A stretch of DNA of 64,000 nucleotides from Catalimonadaceae bacterium JC749 (GTDB lineage: Bacteria > Bacteroidota > Bacteroidia > Cytophagales > Cyclobacteriaceae), in NCBI GenBank assembly GCA_021730635.1, contig JAJNNC010000013.1, positions 1 to 64,000 on the forward strand, read 5' to 3'. How positions within the stretch are numbered: position 1 is the stretch's first letter; the number at the start of each line of letters is the position of its first letter. The notes beneath the pieces were generated by a model. That model did not search any database. It had not been told where the DNA came from and worked only from the letters and a program-made list of their open reading frames with translations. Of this stretch, positions 49,949 to 63,841 are shown in pieces. Both the position numbers and the translations under genes were made by a program.

Positions 49949-51415
49949 ATGACGAATTACAAAATTAGAAGATGTAATCTTTTAACAACCGGCCTGCTTT
50001 TGCTGTCTTTTTTTTGGGTGCATTCCTTAAAAGCCAATAATAAATACCGTGTCATTATTATGACAGATATGACTCATGATGATGGAAATTCATTAATCAG
50101 GTATTTGTATTATGCACCTCATTTTGATCTGGAAGCGCTGATCATTACGCCGCAGCTCCCTGATTATAATCATGATGATGAGGCTCCCTGGCATAAAGCT
50201 CAGTCTATCCTGGAAGCTTACCAACGAGAGGAGCTTCAGCTGAGAAAACATCATCCTGATTTTCCAACGTATGAAGCTTTGAGGAAGGTGACTAAAAAGG
50301 GCAGAGGCGCTCTTCCTATTATCTGGCTGACCAAAGAGCGTCAATTTTCTGGTAATATTGCCGATAGGAAAGTGGAAAGCTCCTGGGGAGAAATAAAATT
50401 CTCAGACTGGATTGGAGAGGGCAATACGCCTTATGGAGAGCCTAAAGATTCTGGAGGAAGTGACTTTCTACTGACCATTTTCGATAAAAAGGACGATCGA
50501 CCCATTTTTGTACAAATGTGGGGAGGTTCTATTACTTTTGTTCAGGCTTTATACCGCTATCGGGAAAGTCGTGGTCAGGAAAAATTTGAGCAGCTTTTAC
50601 ACAAACTACACATTTTCAACATTCACCTGCAGGATATAACCATTGATTACCTGATCGATCTGGATCAAGTTAAAAGTTTGAACTGCCTGAATATGGGAGA
50701 AACTACCGCTACCTATGAGGGTGAGCGAGTAGCACCCGGATGGTTTCTTTTTGATCATGGACATTTCTGGAAATACATTAAGGTAATGTCTGATAAAGAA
50801 GTAAAAGGGCATGGTCCAATGTCTGACTTATATGACAATGGAGGGGAAGGGGATACGCCCACTTTTCTTTATCTGCTCAGTGCTATGCGGGGGTTGAATA
50901 ATCCTTTAGATCCAACCCAGGGGAGCTGGGGTTCTATGTTTCATCCATTGGATGCGAAATTTCCAAAGAATTATTATGCTACTTGTAAGGTAGAAGAAGA
51001 AGAACTCATTCGTTGGACATCAGCCACATCCAACAGTTTTAAAGCCAGGTTACAGTGGTCGGTAAAAGAACCCAATGCAGTTAATCATGAACCTACAGCC
51101 GTACTCAATGGAGATAGCACTGCTGACATCGTCTACCTGAAGGCCCGACCAGGAGAAAAGGTAACACTGAATGCTTTTGGGTCATCAGATCCTGACGGAG
51201 ATGACATTACTTACCATTGGTTCTACTACCAAAGGGCAAGCAATTACCTTGGAGAAATCAAGTTAACGCAAACCGGAAAGGGAATACAATCCTTCAGCAT
51301 TCCCAAAGATTTAGGTGATTCGGAAATTCATATTGTCTTGGAAGTTAAAGATCAAGGTTCTCCTGCTTTGGTATCTTATAAACGAGTGATCATTTCGAAT
51401 GATCACAAAAAATAA
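49949..51415 (+). CDS. DUF1593 nucleoside-hydrolase-like exported protein
   Basis: Exported protein of 488 residues. The signal peptide (LLTTGLLLLSFFWVHSLKA) leads into a nucleoside-hydrolase-like domain: YRVIIMTDMTHDDGNSLIRYLYYAPHF resembles the Asp-rich calcium-binding start of that fold, with KDDRPIFVQMWGGSITFVQALYRYRE later. From about residue 365 a C-terminal beta domain occurs (EPTAVLNGD...GSSDPDGDDITYHWFYY), of the kind seen with Sde182-type cellulose-binding proteins. Proteins of this family occur in glycan utilisation loci. It precedes the LacI regulator of the locus by 367 bases. The substrate is unproven. Confidence 0.87.
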   Translation: MTNYKIRRCNLLTTGLLLLSFFWVHSLKANNKYRVIIMTDMTHDDGNSLIRYLYYAPHFDLEALIITPQLPDYNHDDEAPWHKAQSILEAYQREELQLRKHHPDFPTYEALRKVTKKGRGALPIIWLTKERQFSGNIADRKVESSWGEIKFSDWIGEGNTPYGEPKDSGGSDFLLTIFDKKDDRPIFVQMWGGSITFVQALYRYRESRGQEKFEQLLHKLHIFNIHLQDITIDYLIDLDQVKSLNCLNMGETTATYEGERVAPGWFLFDHGHFWKYIKVMSDKEVKGHGPMSDLYDNGGEGDTPTFLYLLSAMRGLNNPLDPTQGSWGSMFHPLDAKFPKNYYATCKVEEEELIRWTSATSNSFKARLQWSVKEPNAVNHEPTAVLNGDSTADIVYLKARPGEKVTLNAFGSSDPDGDDITYHWFYYQRASNYLGEIKLTQTGKGIQSFSIPKDLGDSEIHIVLEVKDQGSPALVSYKRVIISNDHKK

Positions 51416-51782
51416 AGTGCCAAGGGTACGAGAATATTCGATAATATATCGTAGGATTCTTTCTTATGGTCAGCGATATAGATCTTTCTGTGAGAATGCT
51501 TTAGGGGGATAGAAAGTCTTATGATAGAATGCATTACTTTATCGGTTCTGTTCTAAATAAACAAATACATTTACCGGTCAGTTAATATTATAAACCACTA
51601 AACTGATGAACTTCCTTCTCCTAGGTAAGCTTAGAAGTGGGAAGATCGTGACGGCCCTCTTGGGAAAAGTGATATAAAATGCTAACTTAAGCAATGTTCA
51701 ACTGACGGGTACGTGACCGCTGATCTTTCATACTCGACAAACGATATCTTATTGTTCCTTACACCATCGATATTATTCTCTC
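51416..51782. other. Region between the DUF1593 gene and the LacI gene
   Basis: These 367 bases hold no gene. The LacI promoter must be here, but no good TTTG/TAnnTTTG pair and no copy of the CTAAACCGATTTAG operator was found. A partial half-site ACTAAACTGAT sits near 51598-51608. Autoregulation by that operator is therefore not supported by sequence. Confidence 0.5.
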
Positions 51783-52841
51783 ATGAAAAAAAAAGCATCC
51801 CTCAATGATGTCGCACAAAAAGTAGGTGTATCCAAGACGTTGGTTTCCCTGGTACTGAATGGCAGATGGCAGGAGGCTAGAATCAGTGAAGAAATGTATA
51901 AGAAAGTGTTGTCTGCCGCTAAGAAACTCAATTACAAACCTAATCAGATGGCTAGGGGATTACGCACGGGCATCTCTCAAACCATCGGATTGTTGGTTGC
52001 TGATATTTCTAATAATTTTTTTTCACAGTTGGGCAGAAAAATAGAAGATGCTGCCGCTACCTATCAGTACCAGGTTATCTTCTGTAGCTTCGATGAAGAC
52101 CCGAAAAGATTCGGAGAACTTATTCAGGTGTTGTTAGACAAACAGGTGGATGGGCTTATTATTTCTCCAGGGGTGAAATGTGAACGTCAGATCAAGAAAT
52201 TACTGCAACAACATATCCCTTTTGTACTGGTAGACCGCTATTTTTCGGGGATCCCTACCAATTCTGTCCGGATTGATAATGCCGGAGGGGCCTACAAAGC
52301 CGTGGAGCATCTGATTCAAATGCAGTACAGGCGCATTGGAATCATTAATTTTCAACCTGGTTTAGAACATATCAAAGAAAGGAAAAGAGGGTATGAGCAG
52401 GCCTTATTGGATGCGGGTTATGCAGTAGACCCCGCTTTAATGAAATGGGTTAGCTTTGACAATGTCAAGCAGGAAGTTCGAAAAGCGATTGATGAGCTTC
52501 TGAGCTTACCCCAAAAGACAGAGGCGATCTTTTTTGTCAATAACCAGGTAGGGCTGATCGGACTGGAATATCTGATCCAGCTAAAGATTCATGTGCCTGA
52601 TGACCTGGCGGTGGTGAGTTTTGATGATCCGGAGGCCTACCGGCTGTGTGCCACGCCCATTACAGCCGTGACACAACCTATTGAATCTCTGGCAGAAAAT
52701 GCTGTCCATCTTTTACTCAAACATATTCAGGATGGTAAACTGGGCGTGGAAAACCCAATCGTTCTGCCGACCGAGCTCATTGTGAGGCGTTCCTCCCTGC
52801 CCAAGCATCATCCCATGCATTCCATACCTCCGGAAGTTTGA
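51783..52841 (+). CDS. LacI/PurR-family regulator of the glycan locus
   Basis: DNA-binding regulator, 352 residues. The helix-turn-helix (ASLNDVAQKVGVSKTLVSLVLNG) is followed by the hinge NQMARGLRTGISQTIGLLVADIS and the sugar-binding-type domain with FDDPEAYRLCATPITAVTQ. It precedes the isomerase gene by 504 bases on the same strand. A LacI-type palindrome, CTAAACCGATTTAG, lies at the isomerase promoter and in reverse complement at the susC promoter, making this protein the obvious candidate to bind both. The central CG and the TTTA/TAAA arms fit the usual LacI-family operator style. The inducer is presumably a sugar released from the imported glycan. Confidence 0.94.
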   Translation: MKKKASLNDVAQKVGVSKTLVSLVLNGRWQEARISEEMYKKVLSAAKKLNYKPNQMARGLRTGISQTIGLLVADISNNFFSQLGRKIEDAAATYQYQVIFCSFDEDPKRFGELIQVLLDKQVDGLIISPGVKCERQIKKLLQQHIPFVLVDRYFSGIPTNSVRIDNAGGAYKAVEHLIQMQYRRIGIINFQPGLEHIKERKRGYEQALLDAGYAVDPALMKWVSFDNVKQEVRKAIDELLSLPQKTEAIFFVNNQVGLIGLEYLIQLKIHVPDDLAVVSFDDPEAYRLCATPITAVTQPIESLAENAVHLLLKHIQDGKLGVENPIVLPTELIVRRSSLPKHHPMHSIPPEV

Positions 52842-52889
52842 CGGTTAATTTTTACAAAATAGTTTGCATAAATAGTATTATCCATTACC

Positions 52890-52916
52890 TTTGCTAAACC
52901 GATTTAGTTATATTTG
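52890..52916 (+). promoter_or_regulatory. Bacteroidota-type promoter of the isomerase operon
   Basis: A TTTG at 52890-52893 and an exact TAnnTTTG element (TATATTTG, 52909-52916) match the -33 and -7 consensus of Bacteroidota sigma factor promoters. The spacing of 15 bases is shorter than the usual 19 or so, so the -33 assignment is weaker than the -7. The LacI-type operator fits exactly between the two elements. Confidence 0.6.
52894..52907. promoter_or_regulatory. LacI-type operator, isomerase promoter copy
   Basis: CTAAACCGATTTAG: a near-perfect palindrome around a central CG, as expected for a LacI-family site. It lies between the -33 and -7 elements, so binding would block RNA polymerase. 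The exact reverse complement of all 14 bases occurs at 58709-58722 before susC, which is very unlikely by chance and marks a shared regulon. Confidence 0.75.
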
Positions 52917-53344
52917 ACACTGACTATACTTTGGTATATCACCTGAAATCCTCGTCTGTGCAAGAGTAGTTGCGACGCGGATCAGATTGGCATGCAAAGC
53001 GTGCCGGGCAAACAAAGGTAAGGCTGTCACGATTTTTTGACAATACAGAAAGATCCTTTAGCTATACCGTTAGTTATCACAGAATATCGCAAAATCCTGA
53101 AGAGGATGGTTTGTATACTGAATACCGGATCACCACCCTATTGCTAAACCTAAAACGCCTCTTATGCAACGTCTCTTCCGAAATATCTCTCACGGTCCTG
53201 TCGTAGGATGGCTCTTCCATGGCCTGCTCTCTGTAAAACGCAGATTAGGCAAACATCAATAATCATGGATAGGCTTGATGACGCATTCATGCATTTGATC
53301 TTCATACTTTTTTATACAGACAGTAGAAGTGCATTGAACAAAAT

Positions 53345-55066
53345 ATGCTACCTATGAAAGCACAATTATTATCTACACAGGTCAAACCGGATACGGGTAA
53401 ACCGGTGATTGGTGTTTTTGCCCCTTGTGATCCCCGCATCGACCCAGATAGCAGAGTACGTAGCCAGAACATTGTCAGAAAAGTGGCAGACAGGCTTGCA
53501 GGAAAGGTAGTGCCAGCGGATGGAGAAGCTGTCACAGTGGTCTATTCCGATATACTGGTAGATGCGGAGTTACAGGCCGACCAGGTGGCACGTCAGTTTA
53601 AAGAGGCTGGGGTCAATATCCTGGTGTGTGCCCCGGATACCTGGTCTTTTCCCCAGCTGACTACCATTTCGCTCCTGAGTCATTTTCCCAAGGATACACC
53701 TATCAACTTCACCACGGGCAACAGTGGCCCCAGACCGGGCGTGGTCTACACCCATGCCACTGCAGGGGCAATCGCTCAGTACGGAGGGTTGGTTCATATC
53801 AATGTGGGGCAATGGCCGGATGAAGGGCAGGAGCCGGAGATGAGTGAGTCTACTGCTACCTCCCTGATCGATTGGTGCTATGCCGCCGTAACCTATCAGG
53901 GATTGAAAGGAAGAAGAATCGTGGTATTTGGTCATGATTCTATGGGGATGGAAACGGCCCTTCCGCATGTGTTGGAAACCCGTACTCAGTTTGGCCTTGA
54001 GATCACCCGGCTGGATATGAAATTACTGGCGGATATGTTGCAAAAGAAAGCCTATGATCCCCATGAACTGGAAGCCTTGCGTGGCTGGCTGGCTTCTTTG
54101 GCAGGTGACCGAATCGAACTCCGAGACCAGCAAAAAGATAGTGACCTGTTGAACCAAAGTTTAGCCCTCTATCTGATTGTAAGAAATCTTTTGAAAGAGC
54201 TGGATGCCGTGGGAGGAGGATTTATGAGTCAGTTGGAATGGGGATCGGATCAGCGGGGTATACCTTTGCCTGTGGCCGATATCATGGAATCACTGTTTAA
54301 TTCTACCTTTGACCACCAGGGTGAGAAACCTGTCATTCCTTTTGCCACCGAGGCAGATGTGCAAGCCCTGTTGACGCAGCTTTTTATGACCTTGCTTTCC
54401 GGAGGAAATCCACCACTTTTTATGGACTTCCGCAAGGTCTGGGAGCCTGAAGATATCAAAGGTCTAGCACAGAAGAACCAGGTTTCCTGGCAGGGGGACG
54501 AACCCTGGCTTCAGAAAGGATTTGTTGATGGCGTCAACTCAGGGTCTGCTTCCTTCAACTGGGCTGCCATGCCAGGCAGTAGGGTAGAGGATATCATGAA
54601 AGGCATTTCTTTCCCAAAGGCGGTTGATTATTTCTTTTATCTGGGCAATTCCGTGCATTTTATCTCTCCCGGAGGAATACAGGGTATCGCGGCCCGTTTG
54701 GCTTATAGTGCATTGTCTGGTATGTTTTCCATGCTTTGGGACGAAGTCCAAACCCTTGCTTTACCAGATGCGTTGGCGCAGGCCGTATGCCAGACGGCCA
54801 ATCCTACCTGGCCGCATACGTTTGTGGTACCCAAATACGCTTCTATGCTGGAATACAAGCAATATGCGCCGGCCAACCATTTTCATATGACCTGGCATCT
54901 GAAACCTAGCCGTCTGCAATACTGGATGGATTTTACCAATGTCTTATCCCTGACGCCCTGGCAAGCCAGACCGAACTTCATTGAAGGCACCGACCGGCCC
55001 CTACCATTGTTGTATTTATTAAATGGGGGAGAGACGGCAACCAAAAAATTAAAACGAGGGAAATAA
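53345..55066 (+). CDS. FucI-like L-fucose/L-arabinose-type sugar isomerase
   Basis: Predicted cytosolic manganese-dependent aldose-ketose isomerase, 573 residues. The N-terminal domain has the FucI-like VIGVFAPCDPRIDPDSRVRSQNIVRKVADRL and domain 2 has GRRIVVFGHDSMGME. In the catalytic region DIMESLFNSTFD and PFATEADVQ align with the FucI segments that carry two metal ligands, giving Glu315 and Asp338 with nearly the family spacing. A third ligand is likely His512 or His514 in ANHFHMTWHL. The fold is therefore active-site competent, but divergence from true FucI leaves the sugar open. It is the first gene of the LacI-controlled operon; the DUF6786 gene follows after seven bases. Confidence 0.85.
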   Translation: MLPMKAQLLSTQVKPDTGKPVIGVFAPCDPRIDPDSRVRSQNIVRKVADRLAGKVVPADGEAVTVVYSDILVDAELQADQVARQFKEAGVNILVCAPDTWSFPQLTTISLLSHFPKDTPINFTTGNSGPRPGVVYTHATAGAIAQYGGLVHINVGQWPDEGQEPEMSESTATSLIDWCYAAVTYQGLKGRRIVVFGHDSMGMETALPHVLETRTQFGLEITRLDMKLLADMLQKKAYDPHELEALRGWLASLAGDRIELRDQQKDSDLLNQSLALYLIVRNLLKELDAVGGGFMSQLEWGSDQRGIPLPVADIMESLFNSTFDHQGEKPVIPFATEADVQALLTQLFMTLLSGGNPPLFMDFRKVWEPEDIKGLAQKNQVSWQGDEPWLQKGFVDGVNSGSASFNWAAMPGSRVEDIMKGISFPKAVDYFFYLGNSVHFISPGGIQGIAARLAYSALSGMFSMLWDEVQTLALPDALAQAVCQTANPTWPHTFVVPKYASMLEYKQYAPANHFHMTWHLKPSRLQYWMDFTNVLSLTPWQARPNFIEGTDRPLPLLYLLNGGETATKKLKRGK

Positions 55067-55073
55067 TAAACGT

Positions 55074-56324
55074 ATGAAACAATTTCGGAAGACAATACAA
55101 CCACTCTTATGGCTGATGGCGATTGCCGCCTGTTCGCCTTCTGCTTCCGACCAGGAAGGTAGCAGGGCCTCACAACAGGAAGGTACTTTTGGCTATGATG
55201 TAGCCTTTGTGCAGCAATATGATCCACAGGCAGTAGTGTTACACTCTCAGGATCAGAAGGCCGGCGTGTTGGTATCTCCCAAATTCCAGGGCAAGGTATT
55301 CACCAGCACCGCTGAAGGAGACGAAGGCTTTAGTTACGGCTGGATCAATTATGACCTTATCGCATCGGAAGAAAAGGTAGCCCATATGAACGGATATGGC
55401 GGAGAAGACAGATTCTGGATAGGCCCGGAAGGAGGACAGTTTTCTGTTTTTTTTAAACCGGGTGTGGAGATGGTCTTTGACAACTGGTATACCCCGGCAG
55501 CCATAGATACCGAACCTTTTGCCTTGACCGCTCAGGATACCCATTCCGTTCAGATGCAGAAAACAATGAGCTTGGAAAATTATTCCGGCCACACCTTTCC
55601 CCTGAGAGTGGATAGAACCATCACTTTATTGTCAGCCGATCAAACGTCAGATATCTTGAATACCAGCTTGCCGGAAGGAATTAATTTTGTGGGGTATGAA
55701 AGCGAAAACAGTATCACCAATACCGGAGACAGTGCCTGGACGCAGGAAACAGGTACGATCTGTATCTGGATTTTAGGGATGTTTCGTCCCTCACCAACGG
55801 CCACCGTGGTGGTACCCTACCAGCAGGGTGACACAGCCTCACTGGGACCGGTTGCCACCACAGATTACTTTGGAGAGATTGACCCTGACAGAATCTCCAT
55901 CAGCGAAGGGGTACTCTACTTCAAAGTAGATGGCAAAAAGCGGGGTAAGATAGGGTTGGCCCAAGGCAGGGCAAAGGAGGTAGCCGGCAGTTACGACGAG
56001 GCCAATCAGGTGCTGACGCTGGTCCATTATTCTGTCCCGGAAGAAAAGAAGCCCTATGTCAATCAGCGTTGGGAGCAACAGGTAGAACCTTTCCAGGGGG
56101 ATGTCATGAATGCCTACAACGATGGACCCCTGGAAGACGGAAGCCAGATGGGGCCTTTCTACGAAATTGAAAGTTCGTCTCCAGCCGCTTTTCTACGGCC
56201 AGGAGAACAGCTTACCCATTACCACAGAACCTTTCATTTCAGCGGAGAGGAAGCCTCATTGGATCAGCTGGCCCAGGCGGTGTTAGGTGTCAGTCTTGAA
56301 GAGATCAAAAACGCTATGGAGTAA
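55074..56324 (+). CDS. DUF6786-like lipoprotein, possible mutarotase-fold protein
   Basis: Envelope lipoprotein of 416 residues. The signal peptide (KTIQPLLWLMAIAAC) has a lipobox Cys at about residue 20. The mature chain is beta-rich. The FQGKVFTSTAEGDEGFSYGWINYDLIASEE start and HMNGYGGEDRFWIGPEGGQFSVFF follow the DUF6786 pattern, and the arrangement recalls galactose-mutarotase-like sandwiches. Conserved Glu, His and Asp residues are present, but no catalytic set is established. It lies seven bases after the isomerase and 121 bases before the GH97 gene. A role in anomer interconversion of the sugar handled by the isomerase is an inference. Confidence 0.78.
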   Translation: MKQFRKTIQPLLWLMAIAACSPSASDQEGSRASQQEGTFGYDVAFVQQYDPQAVVLHSQDQKAGVLVSPKFQGKVFTSTAEGDEGFSYGWINYDLIASEEKVAHMNGYGGEDRFWIGPEGGQFSVFFKPGVEMVFDNWYTPAAIDTEPFALTAQDTHSVQMQKTMSLENYSGHTFPLRVDRTITLLSADQTSDILNTSLPEGINFVGYESENSITNTGDSAWTQETGTICIWILGMFRPSPTATVVVPYQQGDTASLGPVATTDYFGEIDPDRISISEGVLYFKVDGKKRGKIGLAQGRAKEVAGSYDEANQVLTLVHYSVPEEKKPYVNQRWEQQVEPFQGDVMNAYNDGPLEDGSQMGPFYEIESSSPAAFLRPGEQLTHYHRTFHFSGEEASLDQLAQAVLGVSLEEIKNAME

Positions 56325-56445
56325 GGGACACTCAGATTTTATTCGATTTGCCAACCGTTAAATAAGCATCACGTAGCCAAAGAGGGTGGCAATTCCTGGT
56401 GAAGTCCCAAAAAATTAAGTTAATTAGTGTGCAAACAACAACCTG

Positions 56446-58473
56446 ATGCGTGTTTTGATAAATTTGTTTGAGACAGTCTCCATCCTGTACCGGCTAAAAT
56501 CCCAGGTGGCTTTACTGATCCTTATCATGTTGCTGTCTGCCTCCGTGTCCGCACAAAAAAGAATAGTGTTAACATCACCCGATCAAAATCTTATCTTTTC
56601 ACTGAGACTCACCCAGAAAGCACCAGTTTACCAGGTGGTGTTTAAAGGAAAAACCCTGATTGCAGATTCGGAATTGGGCCTTTTATTTCAGGAATCAGGT
56701 CTCTTTCAGGAGAATCTGAAGATGTTGACACCCGTTTATCGTGAGGTGGACGAAACGTATCCGCTGGTGGTAGGAAAGGCAAGCACGGCCAGGGATCACC
56801 ATAAGGAAGTGATGATCCCGCTGGTTGAACGAAATGAAAGGAAGCGTCAGATCAATCTGGTGGTTCGTGCCTTCAACGATGGGGTCGCTTTCCGTTATGA
56901 ATTTCCCGAACAGGCATCATGGAACTCCTACACTTTACTGGATGAAGGGAGTACTTTTCATGTGGCCAGTAATCCGACAGTCCATACCCTTTTCTGGGGC
57001 CATTATACCAACAGCCATGAGGGGTATTATCATACGCTGCCTTACGATGAAGTGAAGGCGGATACCTTGATGGATGTGCCAGCCTTGCTGGTGTATCCCG
57101 GGAACATATACATGGCCATTACCGAAGCTAACTTACGGGATTATGCCGGGATGTATCTCACAAAACAGGAGGGGCGGCTTAGCACTCATCTTTCCCCGCT
57201 ACCCGGACAAACGGAGGTCAAGGTAAAGGCTACCTTACCCCATCGTACTCCCTGGCGTGTGATGATGATCAGCGACCGGATCGGTGCCCTGATAGAGTCT
57301 AACATCCTGACCAGTCTGAATGATCCCAGTGCTATCCAAGATATTTCCTGGATCAAGCCGGGTAAAACCTCCTTCCACTGGTGGAATGGTGACATCACGC
57401 CGGATACTACTTTTGCGCCGGGCGTCAATTTTGAAACCAACAAGTATTATATCGATTTTTGTGCCCGGCATCAGATAGACTATCATGCCGTGATCGGTTA
57501 TGGAGGTTTTGCCTGGTATAAAAGTGATGCCGCCGGCTATGGGGTGGTAGGCCCTGAGACCGATGTGACCAAGCCCGTGCCTAGTTTAGACATGCAAAGA
57601 GTGTGTGATTATGCCAGAGAAAAAGGAGTAGGTATCCATGTATGGGTCCACTGGCAGGCTTTGTATCCCAGGTTGGAAGAAGCTTTTACCCAGTTTGAAG
57701 AATGGGGTATCAAGGGTATGATGGTTGACTTTATGGACCGGGACGATCAGGAAATGGTCAACATCCAGGAAGAGATGCTGCAAAAGGCAGCCGAGCATCA
57801 TTTATACATTCAGTTTCATGGTGCTTTTAAGCCGACCGGCCTGAGTCGTACGTATCCCAATGAGTTTACCCGGGAAGGGGCCCTAAATTATGAGTATAAT
57901 AAGTGGAGTGAAAAACCTGTCAACCCCGATCATGACCTTAAGATTGTGTTTACACGCATGCTAGCAGGGCCTACCGACTATCATTTAGGAGGATTCAGGG
58001 CGGTGCCCGATTCAGCTTTTCAAATCCAGTTTACCCGTCCGCTCATGGGCGGTACCCGTTGCCATATGCTGGCCATGTATGTGGTATTGGAAAGTTATCT
58101 GGCCATGGTGTGCGACTATCCGGAAGCCTATGAGGGTGAACCGGGTTTTGAATTCCTGACACAAGTGCCTACAACCTGGGATGAAACCCGGGTCCCTACT
58201 GCTGAACTGGACCAATATGTGACCATTGCCCGTCGAAAAGGCAGTAGCTGGTATGTGGGCAGTATTAACAATAGGGAAGCCAGAACCATCAAAGTACCCA
58301 TGGATTTTTTACCTCCTGGTACCTATACAGCGGAAATATACACCGATGCACCAGATGTGGATCAATATCCCAATCACCTGAGCAAGAGAACACAGACCGT
58401 GAACCCTTCAGATATTCTCACTTTTACCTTAGCAGCTGGTGGGGGACAGGTGATGCGTTTGGTGAAGCAGTAG
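56446..58473 (+). CDS. Glycoside hydrolase family 97 (retaining-type subgroup)
   Basis: Exported alpha-glycosidase of 675 residues, related to SusB. A signal peptide (VALLILIMLLSASVSAQ) is followed by the GH97 N-terminal beta sandwich (LTSPDQNLIFSLRLTQKAPVYQVVFKGKTL), with RNERKRQINLVVRAFNDGVAFRYEF. The barrel has SFHWWNGDITPD and WGIKGMMVDFMDRDDQEMV, where Asp428 sits at the nucleophile position of the retaining GH97 members, unlike the inverting SusB. NEFTREGALNYEYNKW follows. A C-terminal beta domain ends the chain. Retaining GH97 enzymes studied so far act on alpha-galactosides, so that linkage is a candidate here. Confidence 0.9.
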   Translation: MRVLINLFETVSILYRLKSQVALLILIMLLSASVSAQKRIVLTSPDQNLIFSLRLTQKAPVYQVVFKGKTLIADSELGLLFQESGLFQENLKMLTPVYREVDETYPLVVGKASTARDHHKEVMIPLVERNERKRQINLVVRAFNDGVAFRYEFPEQASWNSYTLLDEGSTFHVASNPTVHTLFWGHYTNSHEGYYHTLPYDEVKADTLMDVPALLVYPGNIYMAITEANLRDYAGMYLTKQEGRLSTHLSPLPGQTEVKVKATLPHRTPWRVMMISDRIGALIESNILTSLNDPSAIQDISWIKPGKTSFHWWNGDITPDTTFAPGVNFETNKYYIDFCARHQIDYHAVIGYGGFAWYKSDAAGYGVVGPETDVTKPVPSLDMQRVCDYAREKGVGIHVWVHWQALYPRLEEAFTQFEEWGIKGMMVDFMDRDDQEMVNIQEEMLQKAAEHHLYIQFHGAFKPTGLSRTYPNEFTREGALNYEYNKWSEKPVNPDHDLKIVFTRMLAGPTDYHLGGFRAVPDSAFQIQFTRPLMGGTRCHMLAMYVVLESYLAMVCDYPEAYEGEPGFEFLTQVPTTWDETRVPTAELDQYVTIARRKGSSWYVGSINNREARTIKVPMDFLPPGTYTAEIYTDAPDVDQYPNHLSKRTQTVNPSDILTFTLAAGGGQVMRLVKQ

Positions 58474-58677
58474 TACATGGTTCCTCTTTACAAATCCAAG
58501 GGGGATGGCCAAAGGATGGAAGACCTCTTTTCCTGGCAATCAATCCTGTAACGGCTTATGAAAGGCATGTTCTTTTTTTTAGTACAGAAAGATACTGTCT
58601 TACAGGCTATAATGAGGTGCAATTTTTCCGAACTACAGAAAGCAGGTAAAAAAACTTTAAAAATTAACGGGAAGTAA

Positions 58678-58708
58678 TTTGATACTTATCAAATTATAGA
58701 TATTTTAG
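58678..58708 (+). promoter_or_regulatory. Promoter of susC
   Basis: TTTG at 58678-58681 and TATTTTAG at 58701-58708 resemble the -33 and -7 elements, the latter with one mismatch to TAnnTTTG. The spacing of 19 bases is the expected one. The operator begins at the next base, placing it over the transcription start. Confidence 0.55.
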
Positions 58709-58722
58709 CTAAATCGGTTTAG
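58709..58722. promoter_or_regulatory. LacI-type operator, susC promoter copy
   Basis: CTAAATCGGTTTAG, the exact reverse complement of the operator at 52894-52907. Its position just downstream of the -7 element would let a bound repressor block transcription initiation of susC and susD. Confidence 0.75.
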
Positions 58723-58888: not shown

Positions 58889-61800
58889 ATGAAACAATCT
58901 TATTTACTAACCTTACAAATCCTTTCCTTTTATGTAGGAGCGGGTTTGTGGCTACCAACGCTGATGATCCCATCGGTGTGGGCCGATCCGTCACCTAACC
59001 CTTTGCTGGAAATTCGCGTCAGTGGCACGGTGAGTGCCCAGACCGATGGGGGTACCCTGCCCGGGGTCAACGTGGTGGTGAAAGGAACTAACAGTGGTAC
59101 CGTGACCGATGTGGATGGCAAATACAGCATCAGTGTACCCAATGAAAGTGACACATTGGTATTTTCATCGGTAGGTTATATGAATCAGGAGATTCCTGTG
59201 AATGGCCGATCCGTGATTGATGTTGTCCTTTCAGAGGATATTCAAAGCCTGGAAGAGGTGGTCGTTACCGGCTATATGGTGCAGAAGAAAGCCGACCTGA
59301 CAGGTGCCGTGGCAGTGGTGTCTTCAGAAGAAATAGAAAAAAACAACTTCGCCAATGTGATGCAGGGCTTACAAGGCCGTGTCCCTGGCGTCTATATCAC
59401 TGCAGATGGAAGTCCTGTGGGTAATGTCAACGTGCAGATACGGGGAATTACCTCTATGCGATCGGCACCGCCACTCATTGTGATCGATGGGCTACCGACC
59501 AATATCAATTTACGGGATATCAATCCCAATGATATTGCTTCCATACAAGTTTTAAAAGATGCAGCCTCGGCCAGTATCTATGGTTCCCGGGCAGCCAGTG
59601 GTGTGATTCTCATTGAAACGAAGTCAGGAAAAGCTGGTGAAACGAAGATCAATTACAATGGCTCCGTGGGCGTGTCCAGCTTCATGAACCGTGTTGAAAT
59701 GATGAATACCCAACAATACGGTCAGGCCATGTGGCAGGCTGCCATTAATGATGGCCTTGATCCTAATTCGGTGACCCAAATTTATTCCTATGACTGGCAC
59801 CGCGATGAAAACGGGATGGCCGTGCTAGACAGAGTGACACCCCGTGAATGGCTGAACGATGAACAAACCATGCCCTCCGCGGATACCGACTGGTTTGATG
59901 CCGGTTCCCAGTTAGGGTTGCAGAACAATCATCAACTTACGCTTTCCAATGGTACGGAAAAAGTTAAAACCTTACTGTCACTCAACTATTATGAAAACCG
60001 GGGAATACAGATCCATACCGGTTTCCGCAGATATTCCTTGCGACTCAACTCTGATTATAGCCTGATCAAAGACCGTTTGTCCATCGGGGAGAATTTTTCT
60101 GTTTCCCATATGAAAATCAATGATCAGAACCATAGCCATTCATTCTTGACCATGCCGCCAATCATTCCCGTTTACACCACCGATGGAGGCTGGGGAGGAA
60201 CAGCTTATAACTTAGGGATGGACGACTATAACAACCCTGTCAGGATGCTGACCCTTGGCAAAGATAATAATACCAAATATCTGAAGGTGCTGGGTAGCAT
60301 GTTTGCCAACCTGAGACTGTTTAAAGATTTGAATTTAAAAACACTCTATGGGGTAGACTATACCTCAGGCTATTACCGGCATATTGACTTTACCTGGGAA
60401 GAAGGAGGGGGCAAAAGAGATATCAATAGTGGCGTCATTGGAGACCAGTTTCATACCATCAATACGACCTGGACCAATACCCTGAACTACGGATTGGATA
60501 TCGGAAATCATGAACTTGATTTTCTGGCGGGCATGGAGATGGTACAATTCGTCACAGAAAACCTGCGTGGTTTCCGTCGGGATATAGAGCTGGAAAATTA
60601 TGATTATGCTTATTTAAGTGCGGCCACCGGGAACCAGGAAGTGAGTGGTACAGGCGATGAGTTTTCACTGTTGTCTTACTTTTCCAAGTTCAACTATGTC
60701 TTTAACTCCAAATACCTGCTTTCTGCTACCTTGCGCTACGACGGTTCTTCTAAATTCGGCCAGAACAATCAGTTTGGTTTTTTTCCGGCGGTCTCAGCCG
60801 GATGGCGATTGAGTGATGAAAACTTCCTGGCAGGGAATGACATCATCTCAGATTTGAAATTGAGAGCCAGCTGGGGGATGAATGGGAACTCTAATATACC
60901 TACCAACGCGTTGGTAAACATCTATGATGCGGATTACAGCAGCACCGGATACGGACTGGCCGGCAATGAAACCGGTACACTCTACTCGGGCTACCGCCGT
61001 AGACATATCGGTAACAACAGCCTGAAATGGGAGACTACCCGTCAGACCGACATAGGTGTTGATTTTGGATTACTGGGCGGAAGCCTGTCCGGTTCTATCG
61101 ATTATTTCTTTAAATATACAGACGGGATGTTGTATGAACCCCCGTATCTGGCTGCCATCGGGGAAGGAGGATATCAATGGATCAATGCAGCTAACATGAC
61201 AAACAAAGGTATTGAACTGATCCTGTCGTATGCCAGCAACCTCAGCAATGAATTTACTTACAGCCTTACCGGTAATATCAGCTCCTACAGAAACCGTATC
61301 GATGATCTTCCGGAATCTGTGAAGTTCACTTATGGCGGGAACGGACTGGATGATAATATTTTAGGAAGACCGCTGAATTCTTTCTATGGTTTCATAGCCG
61401 ATGGGCTGTTTGAATCCCAGGAAGAAGTGAATAACTCCCCGGAACAACCCGGGAAAGGTTTGGGTAGAATCCGTTACAAAGATTTGGATAACGACGGACG
61501 CATCACCTGGGAACATGACCGTACCTGGATCGGAGTGAGAGATCCTGATTTTACCTACGGTCTCAACGTTGAAGCACGTTACAGAGGATTTGATTTCAAT
61601 ATGTTCTGGCAGGGTGTTGCGGGCAATACAGTCAGAAACGACTGGAAGACCTACAGCGATTTCTGGAATGTTTGGACACAGAGTGGATTCAACCATGCTA
61701 CCCGCCTCTTGGATGCCTGGTCACCGGCAAATCCTGACTCTGACATTCCGGCCTTGTCTATGATCAATCAGAATGATGAGCGGCGGCTGTCTACCTACTT

Positions 61801-62092
61801 CATGGAATCCGGGTCTTATCTGAAGCTCAGATACATCGAGCTGGGCTATAATTTACCTGGTGCCCTAATGGAGAAATTAGGAATGCAGCAGTTTCGCATT
61901 TATGTAAATGCGCAAAACATTGTGAATCTAAAAAAATGGTGGGGGGATAATGCATTTACAGGGATAGATCCTGAAAATCCTTCTAAAATCGATCCCCAGA
62001 ATCCGGATGTAAATCCAAATGCAATTAGAGAATATTATAGTCCTTATGTGATGCCCCAGATGTTTAAAACAGGGGTGAATGTAACCTTTTAA
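58889..62092 (+). CDS. SusC/RagA-family TonB-linked outer membrane protein
   Basis: Outer-membrane importer for oligosaccharides, 1067 residues. After the signal sequence comes the CarboxypepD_reg-like domain (VSGTVSAQTDGGTLPGVNVVVKGTNSGTVTDVDGKYSI). The signature SLEEVVVTGYMVQKKADLTGAV is followed by the plug with MQGLQGRVPGVYITADGSPVGNVNVQIRGITSM and ASASIYGSRAASGVILIETKSGK, then the barrel ending MFKTGVNVTF. The SusD partner begins 18 bases after the stop at its preferred start. Its promoter carries the LacI-type operator shared with the isomerase operon, so import and metabolism are probably induced together. Confidence 0.96.
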   Translation: MKQSYLLTLQILSFYVGAGLWLPTLMIPSVWADPSPNPLLEIRVSGTVSAQTDGGTLPGVNVVVKGTNSGTVTDVDGKYSISVPNESDTLVFSSVGYMNQEIPVNGRSVIDVVLSEDIQSLEEVVVTGYMVQKKADLTGAVAVVSSEEIEKNNFANVMQGLQGRVPGVYITADGSPVGNVNVQIRGITSMRSAPPLIVIDGLPTNINLRDINPNDIASIQVLKDAASASIYGSRAASGVILIETKSGKAGETKINYNGSVGVSSFMNRVEMMNTQQYGQAMWQAAINDGLDPNSVTQIYSYDWHRDENGMAVLDRVTPREWLNDEQTMPSADTDWFDAGSQLGLQNNHQLTLSNGTEKVKTLLSLNYYENRGIQIHTGFRRYSLRLNSDYSLIKDRLSIGENFSVSHMKINDQNHSHSFLTMPPIIPVYTTDGGWGGTAYNLGMDDYNNPVRMLTLGKDNNTKYLKVLGSMFANLRLFKDLNLKTLYGVDYTSGYYRHIDFTWEEGGGKRDINSGVIGDQFHTINTTWTNTLNYGLDIGNHELDFLAGMEMVQFVTENLRGFRRDIELENYDYAYLSAATGNQEVSGTGDEFSLLSYFSKFNYVFNSKYLLSATLRYDGSSKFGQNNQFGFFPAVSAGWRLSDENFLAGNDIISDLKLRASWGMNGNSNIPTNALVNIYDADYSSTGYGLAGNETGTLYSGYRRRHIGNNSLKWETTRQTDIGVDFGLLGGSLSGSIDYFFKYTDGMLYEPPYLAAIGEGGYQWINAANMTNKGIELILSYASNLSNEFTYSLTGNISSYRNRIDDLPESVKFTYGGNGLDDNILGRPLNSFYGFIADGLFESQEEVNNSPEQPGKGLGRIRYKDLDNDGRITWEHDRTWIGVRDPDFTYGLNVEARYRGFDFNMFWQGVAGNTVRNDWKTYSDFWNVWTQSGFNHATRLLDAWSPANPDSDIPALSMINQNDERRLSTYFMESGSYLKLRYIELGYNLPGALMEKLGMQQFRIYVNAQNIVNLKKWWGDNAFTGIDPENPSKIDPQNPDVNPNAIREYYSPYVMPQMFKTGVNVTF

Positions 62093-62110
62093 TATTGATC
62101 AGTGATTCCT

Positions 62111-63841
62111 ATGAAAAAGATTATTCATTATATTATACTAACCCTTCTGATCATTGTGAACAACAATTGCCAGGAGGTACTGGAAGTAAACCCGAAAGGG
62201 GTGCTTACCGAAGAACAATTGGCCGGACCTGACTATGTGGATGGTTTTGTCAATGCCGCCTATGCCTTTATGCCCCGCGCGCATGCTTTTGATACCATGA
62301 ACCCCTGGATTGCCAGTTTCCGTTCGGACGATGCCTATAAAGGTGGAGGTGGTTTAGATGACCAGACACCCTGGTACCAGATGGAAGTGTTTTCTCTGGT
62401 CAATGCCAATGTGGGCAACAACGATGGGGTTTGGTATAGCGGTTATCAAGGCATATCCCGGGTCAATACAGCCATCAATGCCATCAATAGGGTAGAAGAA
62501 GGAGAATATCCTGTGAAGACCCAGCGGCTGGCAGAAATGCGTTTTCTCAGAGGCTGGATTCACTTTAATCTGAAAAGAAGGTTTAAGTGGATTCCCTACA
62601 TCACGGAAGAGGACACGCCGGAAGATATCACTGAAATTTCCAACCATCCGGCAGAGGCTGCTAATGACCTGGGGCTCTGGCAAAAAATTTATGATGATTT
62701 CAAATTTGCTGCCGACAACCTGCCCGAAGTGCAGGAAGAAAAAGGAAGAGCTTCCAGGTTTGCTGCCGTAGCCTATATGGTAAAAACGCTGCTCTGGATG
62801 GCCTACGAACAGGACGACAGGCACCAGGTGGTGAACATCAATACGGAAAGATTGACAGAAGCGCTGACCCTGAGCGATCAGATAATCAACAGTGGCTTGT
62901 TCAGCCTGGCTCCTGATATTGCGCAGAACTTCATGTTAGAATATGATAATGCCTCTCCTGAATCCTTGTGGGAGTTGCAGTTTACCATTGATGACGGCAC
63001 CTCCCGTGGCAATCTGAACGAAGGCAACGGACTTACCGCCCCCTGGTGGAATCCTTACTTCAGCTGCTGCGACTTTCACAAAGCCAGTTATAACATGGTG
63101 AATGCCTTTAAGGTAGATGCCAACGGATTGCCAGAGTTTGAGACTTTCAATGATGAAGAAATCACGGATAAAGAGACTTATTTCAATAGCAATACCTGGG
63201 ACCCCAGACTGAACCATACCGTAGCGATTCCAGGGTATCCCTGGAAATACCAGACGGTATTGTATGATAGCGGCGGGTCCAGACAACCGGCTACCTATGG
63301 TTACATGCACTCCATGAAAGAGAATGTGCGTACCGATAGCCCCGGTCTGTTTGATGCTTTCTGGATGTTCAATTCTAAAAATCAGATTGAAGTACGCTAT
63401 GCGGAAGTATTGCTTTGGAAAGCAGAAATACTCATTCAGCTTGGCCGCCACATGGAGGCGCTGCCGCTGATCAATCAGATCAGGGAAAGGGCTGCCAACA
63501 GTACAGAAAAATTGAAGTTTCCGGACGGCAGCCCCTTGTTGAATTACCAGGTGGAACCTTATGTTGACGGTGTCAATTGTACCTGGGACCGGGATTTTGC
63601 ATGGAATGCTTTGATGTGGGAAAACCGGTTGGAAATGGCTATGGAAGGTCGACGTTTCTATGACCTGGTTCGGTGGGGCATTGCCGGTGAAGTGATGAAC
63701 GAATATTTTGCAAAGGAAAGCCAGCGGCGACAGTGGCTGGAAGTGGCTCGTTTTACCCCCGGAAGAGATGAATATCTACCCATTCCACAGGCACAGATCA
63801 ACTGGTCGCAAGGCGTGTATCAACAGAACCCTGGTTATTAA
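62111..63841 (+). CDS. RagB/SusD-family nutrient-binding lipoprotein
   Basis: Surface lipoprotein that caps SusC and captures the glycan, 576 residues. The signal peptide (KIIHYIILTLLIIVNNNC) ends with the acylated Cys at about residue 19, followed by QEVLEVNPKGVLTEEQL, the usual SusD start. TPR-type helices follow (RLAEMRFLRGWIHFNLKRRF), and the C-terminal RagB region shows IRERAAN, ENRLEMAMEGRRFYDLVRWGIAGEVM and YLPIPQAQI. The frame opens with GTG at 62102; the ATG at 62111 gives a better signal peptide. Confidence 0.95.
   Translation: MKKIIHYIILTLLIIVNNNCQEVLEVNPKGVLTEEQLAGPDYVDGFVNAAYAFMPRAHAFDTMNPWIASFRSDDAYKGGGGLDDQTPWYQMEVFSLVNANVGNNDGVWYSGYQGISRVNTAINAINRVEEGEYPVKTQRLAEMRFLRGWIHFNLKRRFKWIPYITEEDTPEDITEISNHPAEAANDLGLWQKIYDDFKFAADNLPEVQEEKGRASRFAAVAYMVKTLLWMAYEQDDRHQVVNINTERLTEALTLSDQIINSGLFSLAPDIAQNFMLEYDNASPESLWELQFTIDDGTSRGNLNEGNGLTAPWWNPYFSCCDFHKASYNMVNAFKVDANGLPEFETFNDEEITDKETYFNSNTWDPRLNHTVAIPGYPWKYQTVLYDSGGSRQPATYGYMHSMKENVRTDSPGLFDAFWMFNSKNQIEVRYAEVLLWKAEILIQLGRHMEALPLINQIRERAANSTEKLKFPDGSPLLNYQVEPYVDGVNCTWDRDFAWNALMWENRLEMAMEGRRFYDLVRWGIAGEVMNEYFAKESQRRQWLEVARFTPGRDEYLPIPQAQINWSQGVYQQNPGY

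Follow-up and report, generated by a model that had tools for sequence, protein, structure and literature searches.

Gene content of the locus

We analyzed a 64,000-nucleotide stretch of DNA from Catalimonadaceae bacterium JC749 (positions 1 to 64,000 of contig JAJNNC010000013.1, here called C5), referred to below as the window, in which a gene for a LacI-family regulator and two copies of a 14-base candidate operator lie among genes for glycan import and breakdown. The order is lacI, operator 1, isomerase, DUF6786, GH97, operator 2, susC-1, susD-1, with all six genes on the forward strand. The lacI gene (51783-52841) is an open reading frame (ORF) encoding 352 amino acids with matches to Pfam LacI (PF00356, 8.2e-13) and Peripla_BP_3 (PF13377, 6.2e-28), which confirms the assignment made in an initial annotation of this DNA. 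An Sde182 nucleoside-hydrolase-like gene (49949-51415) lies just upstream of it. The isomerase gene (53345-55066) encodes an L-fucose/D-arabinose isomerase-like protein (PF07881, 2.2e-37, and PF07882) whose nearest solved structures are a D-arabinose isomerase (3a9r, 1e-24) and L-fucose isomerases. The presumed leader of its operon (52908-53344, about 440 bases) contains a GGCATGC...GCGTGCC hairpin. Seven bases past the isomerase gene begins the gene for a DUF6786 protein (55074-56324; PF20583, 9.5e-170), followed by a gene for a glycoside hydrolase (GH) of family GH97 (56446-58473), for which the nearest NCBIfam model, a retaining alpha-galactosidase, matched below the model cut-off. The SusC/RagA TonB-dependent transporter SusC-1 (58889-62092; TIGR04056, 3.2e-252, and Pfam) and SusD-1 (62102-63841; PF07980, 1.7e-31) complete the part of the locus inside the window.

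The contig continues past the window with a GH116 gene, a gene for a 695-amino-acid protein without a Pfam match, a second pair susC-2/susD-2 and a weak GH127-like match, and further on with a divergent group containing an ABC-transporter ATPase and then a second GH116 gene. With two susCD pairs next to GH97, two GH116 genes and the weak GH127-like match, the region has the composition of a polysaccharide utilization locus. SusC/SusD, together with the relatives in other genomes, also point to an organism of the Bacteroidota. We scanned 18 ORFs between 49949 and 85831, a range that covers the locus only, and among the 17 other than LacI found no DNA-binding regulator by Pfam. Signs of control by SusR, by a hybrid two-component system (HTCS) or by an extracytoplasmic function (ECF) sigma factor were not found in this scanned range, and neither SusC-1 nor SusC-2 carries an STN domain by Pfam. 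Since no other recognizable regulator appeared in the scanned ORFs, LacI 51783-52841 is the only local candidate found.

Operator sites in the window, the genome and the class

Operator 1, CTAAACCGATTTAG, occupies 52894-52907, with the stop codon of lacI 52 bases ahead of it and the start codon of the isomerase gene 437 bases beyond it, and operator 2, CTAAATCGGTTTAG, occupies 58709-58722, 166 bases before the start codon of susC-1. The second is the exact reverse complement of the first, and both lie where the initial annotation had put them. At 0 to 2 mismatches these are the only two sites in the window, each matching on both strands; at up to 3 mismatches there are 8 matches, with 5.75 expected by shuffling. 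Apart from one base pair on either side of the central CG the motif is a palindrome, so that a dimer would see both sites alike, and the opposite orientation to which the annotation had drawn attention, while correct as a description, carries little information. By eye, a longer palindrome TWR...YWA may be common to the sites.

We then considered the whole genome of 8,001,652 bases. Allowing one mismatch, CTAAAYCGRTTTAG occurs at 7 places, 4 of them inside the glycan locus (2 exact and 2 with one mismatch). The exact pattern CTAAANCGNTTTAG occurs at four places, all on contig C5 (52894, 58709, 70357 and 80992), as compared with 1 for a reversed control pattern. The latter two sites lie beyond the window, 205 bases before the start codon of susC-2 and 271 bases before that of a GH116 gene, respectively, and site 80992 also precedes the divergent ABC gene. 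All four sites are intergenic, between ORFs of at least 150 amino acids, and they fall within one 28.1 kb stretch of 8.0 Mb; by a rough estimate, four random sites would lie so close together with a probability of about 3e-7. With four exact copies, all in one locus, the paired sites of the window are beyond chance. Many copies scattered over the genome outside promoters would have counted against a regulatory role, and instead four of four exact copies precede operons of a single glycan locus. Two one-mismatch places elsewhere were taken as chance: one on contig C9 (42091) follows an aroA-like gene, and one on contig C12 (332687), which lacks the central CG, stands just before a PfkB-like kinase gene. 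Both gene names were assigned by eye, which for gene names here and below means that they were judged from N-terminal sequence only.

Exact CTAAANCGNTTTAG is present in 46 of 395 genomes searched across the class; this genome is highest with four and the next highest has 3. The other 394 genomes hold 54 exact copies, about 0.14 per genome. No class-wide excess of the motif was found in the 395 genomes, where the reversed control was commoner by eye. With the exact motif by eye no commoner than its reversed control, most copies elsewhere in the class are probably chance. This background would suit a reading in which the repeat in the glycan locus is likewise chance, or serves some purpose other than transcription control, for example as an mRNA structure. 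We regard that reading as highly improbable, given that all four copies precede genes of a single locus and that some LacI genes in other genomes also have the site next to them (described below). Further, the leader after site 1 has no unusual structure (z -0.87), and 52700-53500 has no Rfam match.

Promoter layout at the operators

The consensus for Bacteroidota promoters has TTTG near -33 and TAnnTTTG at -7 (PMC7366714), and in a flavobacterium the -7 box spans -12 to -5 (PMC9723704). To score promoter matches we counted both elements together (10 bases), and in a constrained run we held the box within -3 to +4 of the operator.

Before the isomerase operon, a candidate -33 element TTTG (52863-52866, forward strand) lies 19 bases before a candidate -7 element TACCTTTG (52886-52893, forward strand), which fits TAnnTTTG; operator 1 begins at the next base. 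This composite scores 10/10 and is the best of 651 positions between 200 bases before the operator and the start codon. Before susC-1, a candidate -33 TTTG (58678-58681, forward strand) and a candidate -7 TATTTTAG (58701-58708, forward strand) score 9/10, the best of 380 positions, and here too the operator begins at the next base, which bears out the earlier placement of site 2 directly after the -7 element. For site 1, the initial annotation had instead placed the operator between the -33 and -7 elements. A match to such a layout is present, with TATATTTG (52909-52916) as the -7 element and TTAC 20 bases upstream, but it scores 8/10 against 10/10 for the pair that ends directly before the operator. 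The earlier placement is therefore probably wrong, and judged by these matches site 1 probably abuts the -7 element.

With the box held next to the operator, the scores for operators 1 to 4 were 10, 9, 7 and 8, values that are reached at 0.03%, 0.33%, 17% and 3.8% of local intergenic positions, respectively. Taken together, the four operator-abutting matches have a combined P of about 9e-6 relative to local intergenic sequence treated alike. In an unconstrained scan the abutting match was the single best at operators 1 and 2.

This layout bears on the sign of regulation. The LacI family includes members with modes other than simple repression, and the sequence data here are silent on sign, so one may ask whether LacI 51783-52841 uses these sites as an activator, or acts both ways. 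We consider this improbable: at sites 1 and 2 the operator stands directly after the best -7 match and would cover the transcription start, the usual place for a repressor, and the layout with TATATTTG at site 1, between -33 and -7, is a repressing position too.

The LacI protein and its fit to family rules

The LacI protein shows approximately full-length matches to the structures of CcpA, PurR and the ribose repressor, with an N-terminal helix-turn-helix (HTH) and a C-terminal periplasmic-binding-protein-like domain. From the alignment, its recognition helix is VSKTLVSLV and its hinge NQMARGL. Two rules for the LacI family are that operators with a central CG go with Leu and Ala in the hinge, and that a protein with Arg at AA-20 favors G at NT-6 (PMC2978694). 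All four sites have the central CG and the LacI protein has the hinge Ala and Leu, in agreement with the first of these rules; AA-20 is Leu and NT-6 is T rather than G, so the site is at least consistent with LacI-family rules. Operators of the family are as a rule even palindromes with a central CG (PMC4052901), and CTAAACCGATTTAG, 52 bases after lacI, is an even palindromic operator near the gene. The neighboring LacI protein is the likely binder of the sites.

Same-helix LacI genes elsewhere

Orthologous loci could not be used for footprinting: G025, a genus mate, has the isomerase (84% identity) and DUF6786 (71%), with no LacI gene or site there. We therefore tested the site through LacI genes of like helix. 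The helix pattern was found once in the genome itself, in the gene at 51783-52841; three other matches of that search (L054-L056) were left out of account. The search of the 395 class genomes, by helix and not by site, gave 17 matches. From these, the window and 12 fetched loci were used; G224, G288, G912 and G622 were left out, since SKTLVS is not encoded by their matched DNA. Four of the fetched loci (G702, G684, G584 and G640) had no LacI match, leaving 9 LacI genes with VSKTLVS[LM]V, the window's own included. Together with two metagenome-assembled genomes (MAGs; among the five loci of the MAG search, L028-L030 alone were examined for sites) and four genomes of the family, this yielded a set of 15 genes.

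Of the 9 LacI genes from the class, 3 have an exact site within 400 bases, and 6 do when one mismatch is allowed. In the full set, 5 of 15 genes have the exact site at this distance (the window, L028, L029, G703 and G610), and 8 of 15 have it at up to one mismatch, adding G850, G840 and G707, the last without the central CG. When the same flanks were shuffled for composition 300 times at each of these eight loci, an equally good site came up in 0 to 0.3% of cases. The proteins of L028 and L029 are only 42-43% identical to the window LacI, and their site lies about 50 bases ahead of lacI. In G326, whose helix is SKTAVSLV, lacI is flanked by two exact sites, one per side. In the reverse direction, starting from the site alone, a LacI gene stands no more than 450 bases away from 6 of the 54 exact copies in the other 394 genomes; these six fall in five genomes, two of them with VSKTLVSLV, and many sites in this search had only 1.5 kb of context on each side.

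In some loci, other helices seem to go with visibly different sites, such as CTTAATCGATTAGG and CCAAAACGATTTGG. Two genomes of the helix set carry one exact site away from lacI, in G102 455 bases before a susC ORF and in G016 75 bases past the end of an AraC-like gene (by eye); either may be chance. In G032 and G102 (L035, L037), the same-helix LacI gene is convergent with a DUF6786-like gene (by eye), an echo of the link between LacI and DUF6786 in the window.

The genome also encodes a paralogous LacI protein on contig C56 (441851-442992; L010, L048), 43% identical and with the helix VSTALVSYV. Its gene is followed by CTTAATCGATTAGG and CTTAATCGATTTAG and then, by eye, an enolase-superfamily-like gene and SusC/SusD-like genes. 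As CTTAATCGATTTAG (C56 441851) is only one mismatch off and follows the paralogue in a similar lacI-site-operon layout, the sites on C5 could be imagined to belong to another factor such as this paralogue, or to be shared between paralogues. That is quite improbable. Besides CTTAATCGATTTAG the paralogue has CTTAATCGATTAGG, and CTTAAT-type sites, in which the third base is T and not A, occur in the loci of several of its relatives, in some cases at a distance of about 5 kb; no exact CTAAANCGNTTTAG lies near the C56 gene, and the C5 locus has a LacI gene of its own.

Isomerase relatives without LacI

Relatives of the isomerase (69-84% identity) were found in 11 other genomes among 196 searched in the family. 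In stretches of 11-20 kb around each, neither a LacI gene (0/11) nor a site with at most one mismatch (0/11) was present, and DUF6786 was nearby in 4 of the 11. Isomerase relatives without LacI are thus also without the site, which indicates that the site does not belong to the isomerase promoter as such. In G016 the LacI gene of the same helix lies on a different contig from the isomerase. In G016, G090 and G158 (L166-L168), the isomerase relative stands between MFS-permease-like and FGGY-kinase-like genes (by eye) with DUF6786 nearby, and an isomerase-plus-kinase sugar pathway is possible in these three genomes.

Genes around the sites elsewhere

The neighbors of eight site-bearing loci elsewhere were scanned, and genes suggesting use of N-glycans were present in five: GH92, GH29 and GH20 at L028; GH92 at L029; GH38 at G326; a PNGase F-like gene at G840; and, at G703, the N-terminal domain of BNR neuraminidases (sialidase-like). 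The site neighbors resembling N-glycan degraders are catalogued as L028, L029, L091, L136 and L139. Of the other three loci, G610 has a lectin domain and an MFS transporter, G102 has a susCD pair, and G850 gave no Pfam match. The window locus has GH97 and GH116 in place of the N-glycan-type genes. One could read all this jointly: LacI proteins that carry Lys-Thr at the two specificity positions, with Leu or Met where Arg is usual (VSKTLVS[LM]V, with the near variant SKTAVSLV) might form a distinct Bacteroidota recognition class that reads CTAAANCGNTTTAG, stands beside N-glycan-degrader-like genes in those five of eight loci, and was here recruited to run a full two-susCD locus without SusR, HTCS or sigma-factor control. 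We put this forward tentatively, as a combination that is rather doubtful as a whole.

The proposed regulon

We consider it likely that LacI 51783-52841 is a dedicated local repressor of the polysaccharide utilization locus, acting through CTAAANCGNTTTAG at four promoters. A LacI dimer would bind the palindrome before the isomerase-DUF6786-GH97 operon, susC-1/susD-1, susC-2 (site 70357) and the GH116 gene (site 80992). At the two promoters in the window, the operator right after the best -7 match would extend from about -4 to +10, where repressor bound to it would prevent initiation; a like layout may apply, with weaker support, at sites 3 and 4. An intracellular sugar derived from the imported glycan would free the repressor, so that import and breakdown are turned on together.

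Several observations weigh against this proposal. In the unconstrained scan, the abutting match at operator 3 is outscored at three positions and that at operator 4 is tied with one; the idea that the best promoter match abuts all four operators is thus ruled out and holds for sites 1 and 2 only, which leaves the layout well supported at the two window promoters and weak, or open, at the other two. Most local LacI regulators have an operator of their own, whereas none was found ahead of this lacI gene (4 mismatches at best in 51417-51782); autoregulation is common without being obligatory, 72% of surveyed LacI regulators showing it (PMC4052901). For seven of the 15 same-helix LacI genes, the best match within 400 bases has more than one mismatch: 2 (G681, G729), 3 (G032, G102) or 4 (G016, G079, G619). 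In addition, exact sites also occur beside LacI genes with other helices (G326, G220, G216). In a comparison set of 14 similar LacI genes of other helices, 2 have a site at up to one mismatch and 1 has it exactly; leaving out the window gene, the same-helix genes have 7/14 versus 2/14 at up to one mismatch (Fisher P 0.05), and 4/14 for exact sites (P 0.16). Adding one paralogue from the genome itself to the comparison set gives 2/15 and P 0.04. Given the 2 of 14 among other helices, helix specificity as such is only borderline. In this comparison G216, G220 and G314 were left out as they had entered by their sites, three of the four weaker paralogues of the genome (L050-L052) were not counted, and the fourth, L049 (4 mismatches), stood outside the set of 14. 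Finally, G016 has an exact site on its isomerase contig about 22 kb away, so the absence of the site from its isomerase locus holds for the searched stretch only.

The initial annotation had envisaged one repressor silencing both import and metabolism. This idea is supported by the four exact copies, all within the locus, and by the same-helix LacI genes beside the site elsewhere, and it extends from two promoters to four; it is weakened by the seven genes without a site. What results is a testable regulon of one repressor, one 14-base site, four promoters and one locus. If true, it would add a one-component LacI repressor that runs a polysaccharide utilization locus to a field in which most of the control described depends on SusR, on hybrid two-component systems or on sigma factors. 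It would also match a candidate operator to a recognition helix that is not of the well-studied TVSR group. A further use could be as a genetic tool, in the form of a LacI switch native to Bacteroidota-type promoters. As gene control, the proposed regulon is well supported but of a fairly ordinary type.

Comparison with known systems

We found no paper with this motif or with a LacI-run two-susCD locus in a literature search that was partial and reached few subscription papers. A close likeness is to the LacI/GalR local repressors of sugar catabolism (PMC4052901), which share the LacI HTH with a sugar-binding domain, an even palindrome with central CG, and local control of nearby carbohydrate genes; in the survey reported there autoregulation prevails, whereas here lacI has no operator found before it. 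The recognition helix also falls outside the TVSR group analyzed in PMC2978694.

Within the phylum, four LacI regulators (KdgR, UxaR, UxmR and UxuR) have been predicted in B. thetaiotaomicron by comparative genomics, and a small number of proteins located in the periplasm or outside the cell count among the targets of KdgR and UxmR (PMC3878776). These four regulators are of the same family but are assigned to uronate use, while the sites described here precede two susCD pairs and several glycoside hydrolase genes. The predicted Bacteroides regulons of ManR (GntR family) and AraR (NrtR family) include SusC/SusD systems (PMC3878776, PMC4666351), and thus resemble the present case in that a regulator outside the SusR, HTCS and ECF types runs outer-membrane import together with intracellular metabolism. 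They differ in that these proteins belong to other DNA-binding families and that HTCS act on several of the AraR targets as well, whereas the scanned locus here has no sign of HTCS control. The initial annotation had considered repressor control of this locus a variation worth noting; in light of these regulators, one-component control of such loci in Bacteroidota is less unusual than that implied.

In Bacteroides, loci of this type are described as controlled by SusR-like regulators, HTCS, or ECF sigma/anti-sigma pairs (PMC3878776). Classical Sus control has the same targets, susCD and glycoside hydrolase genes, but SusR is a membrane activator with a periplasmic sensor, whereas the candidate here is a LacI-family protein with a short CG-centered palindrome. 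Control by LacI or HTCS is also reported for beta-1,4-xylan systems with TonB-dependent transporters in B. ovatus, P. bryantii and Xanthomonas campestris, the pairing of species and regulator being unstated in that account (PMC12125979). LacI-family control of TonB-dependent glycan uptake is therefore already on record, a likeness at the level of the regulator family. Together with the LacI, ManR and AraR precedents, this places the present case within an already known type of control.

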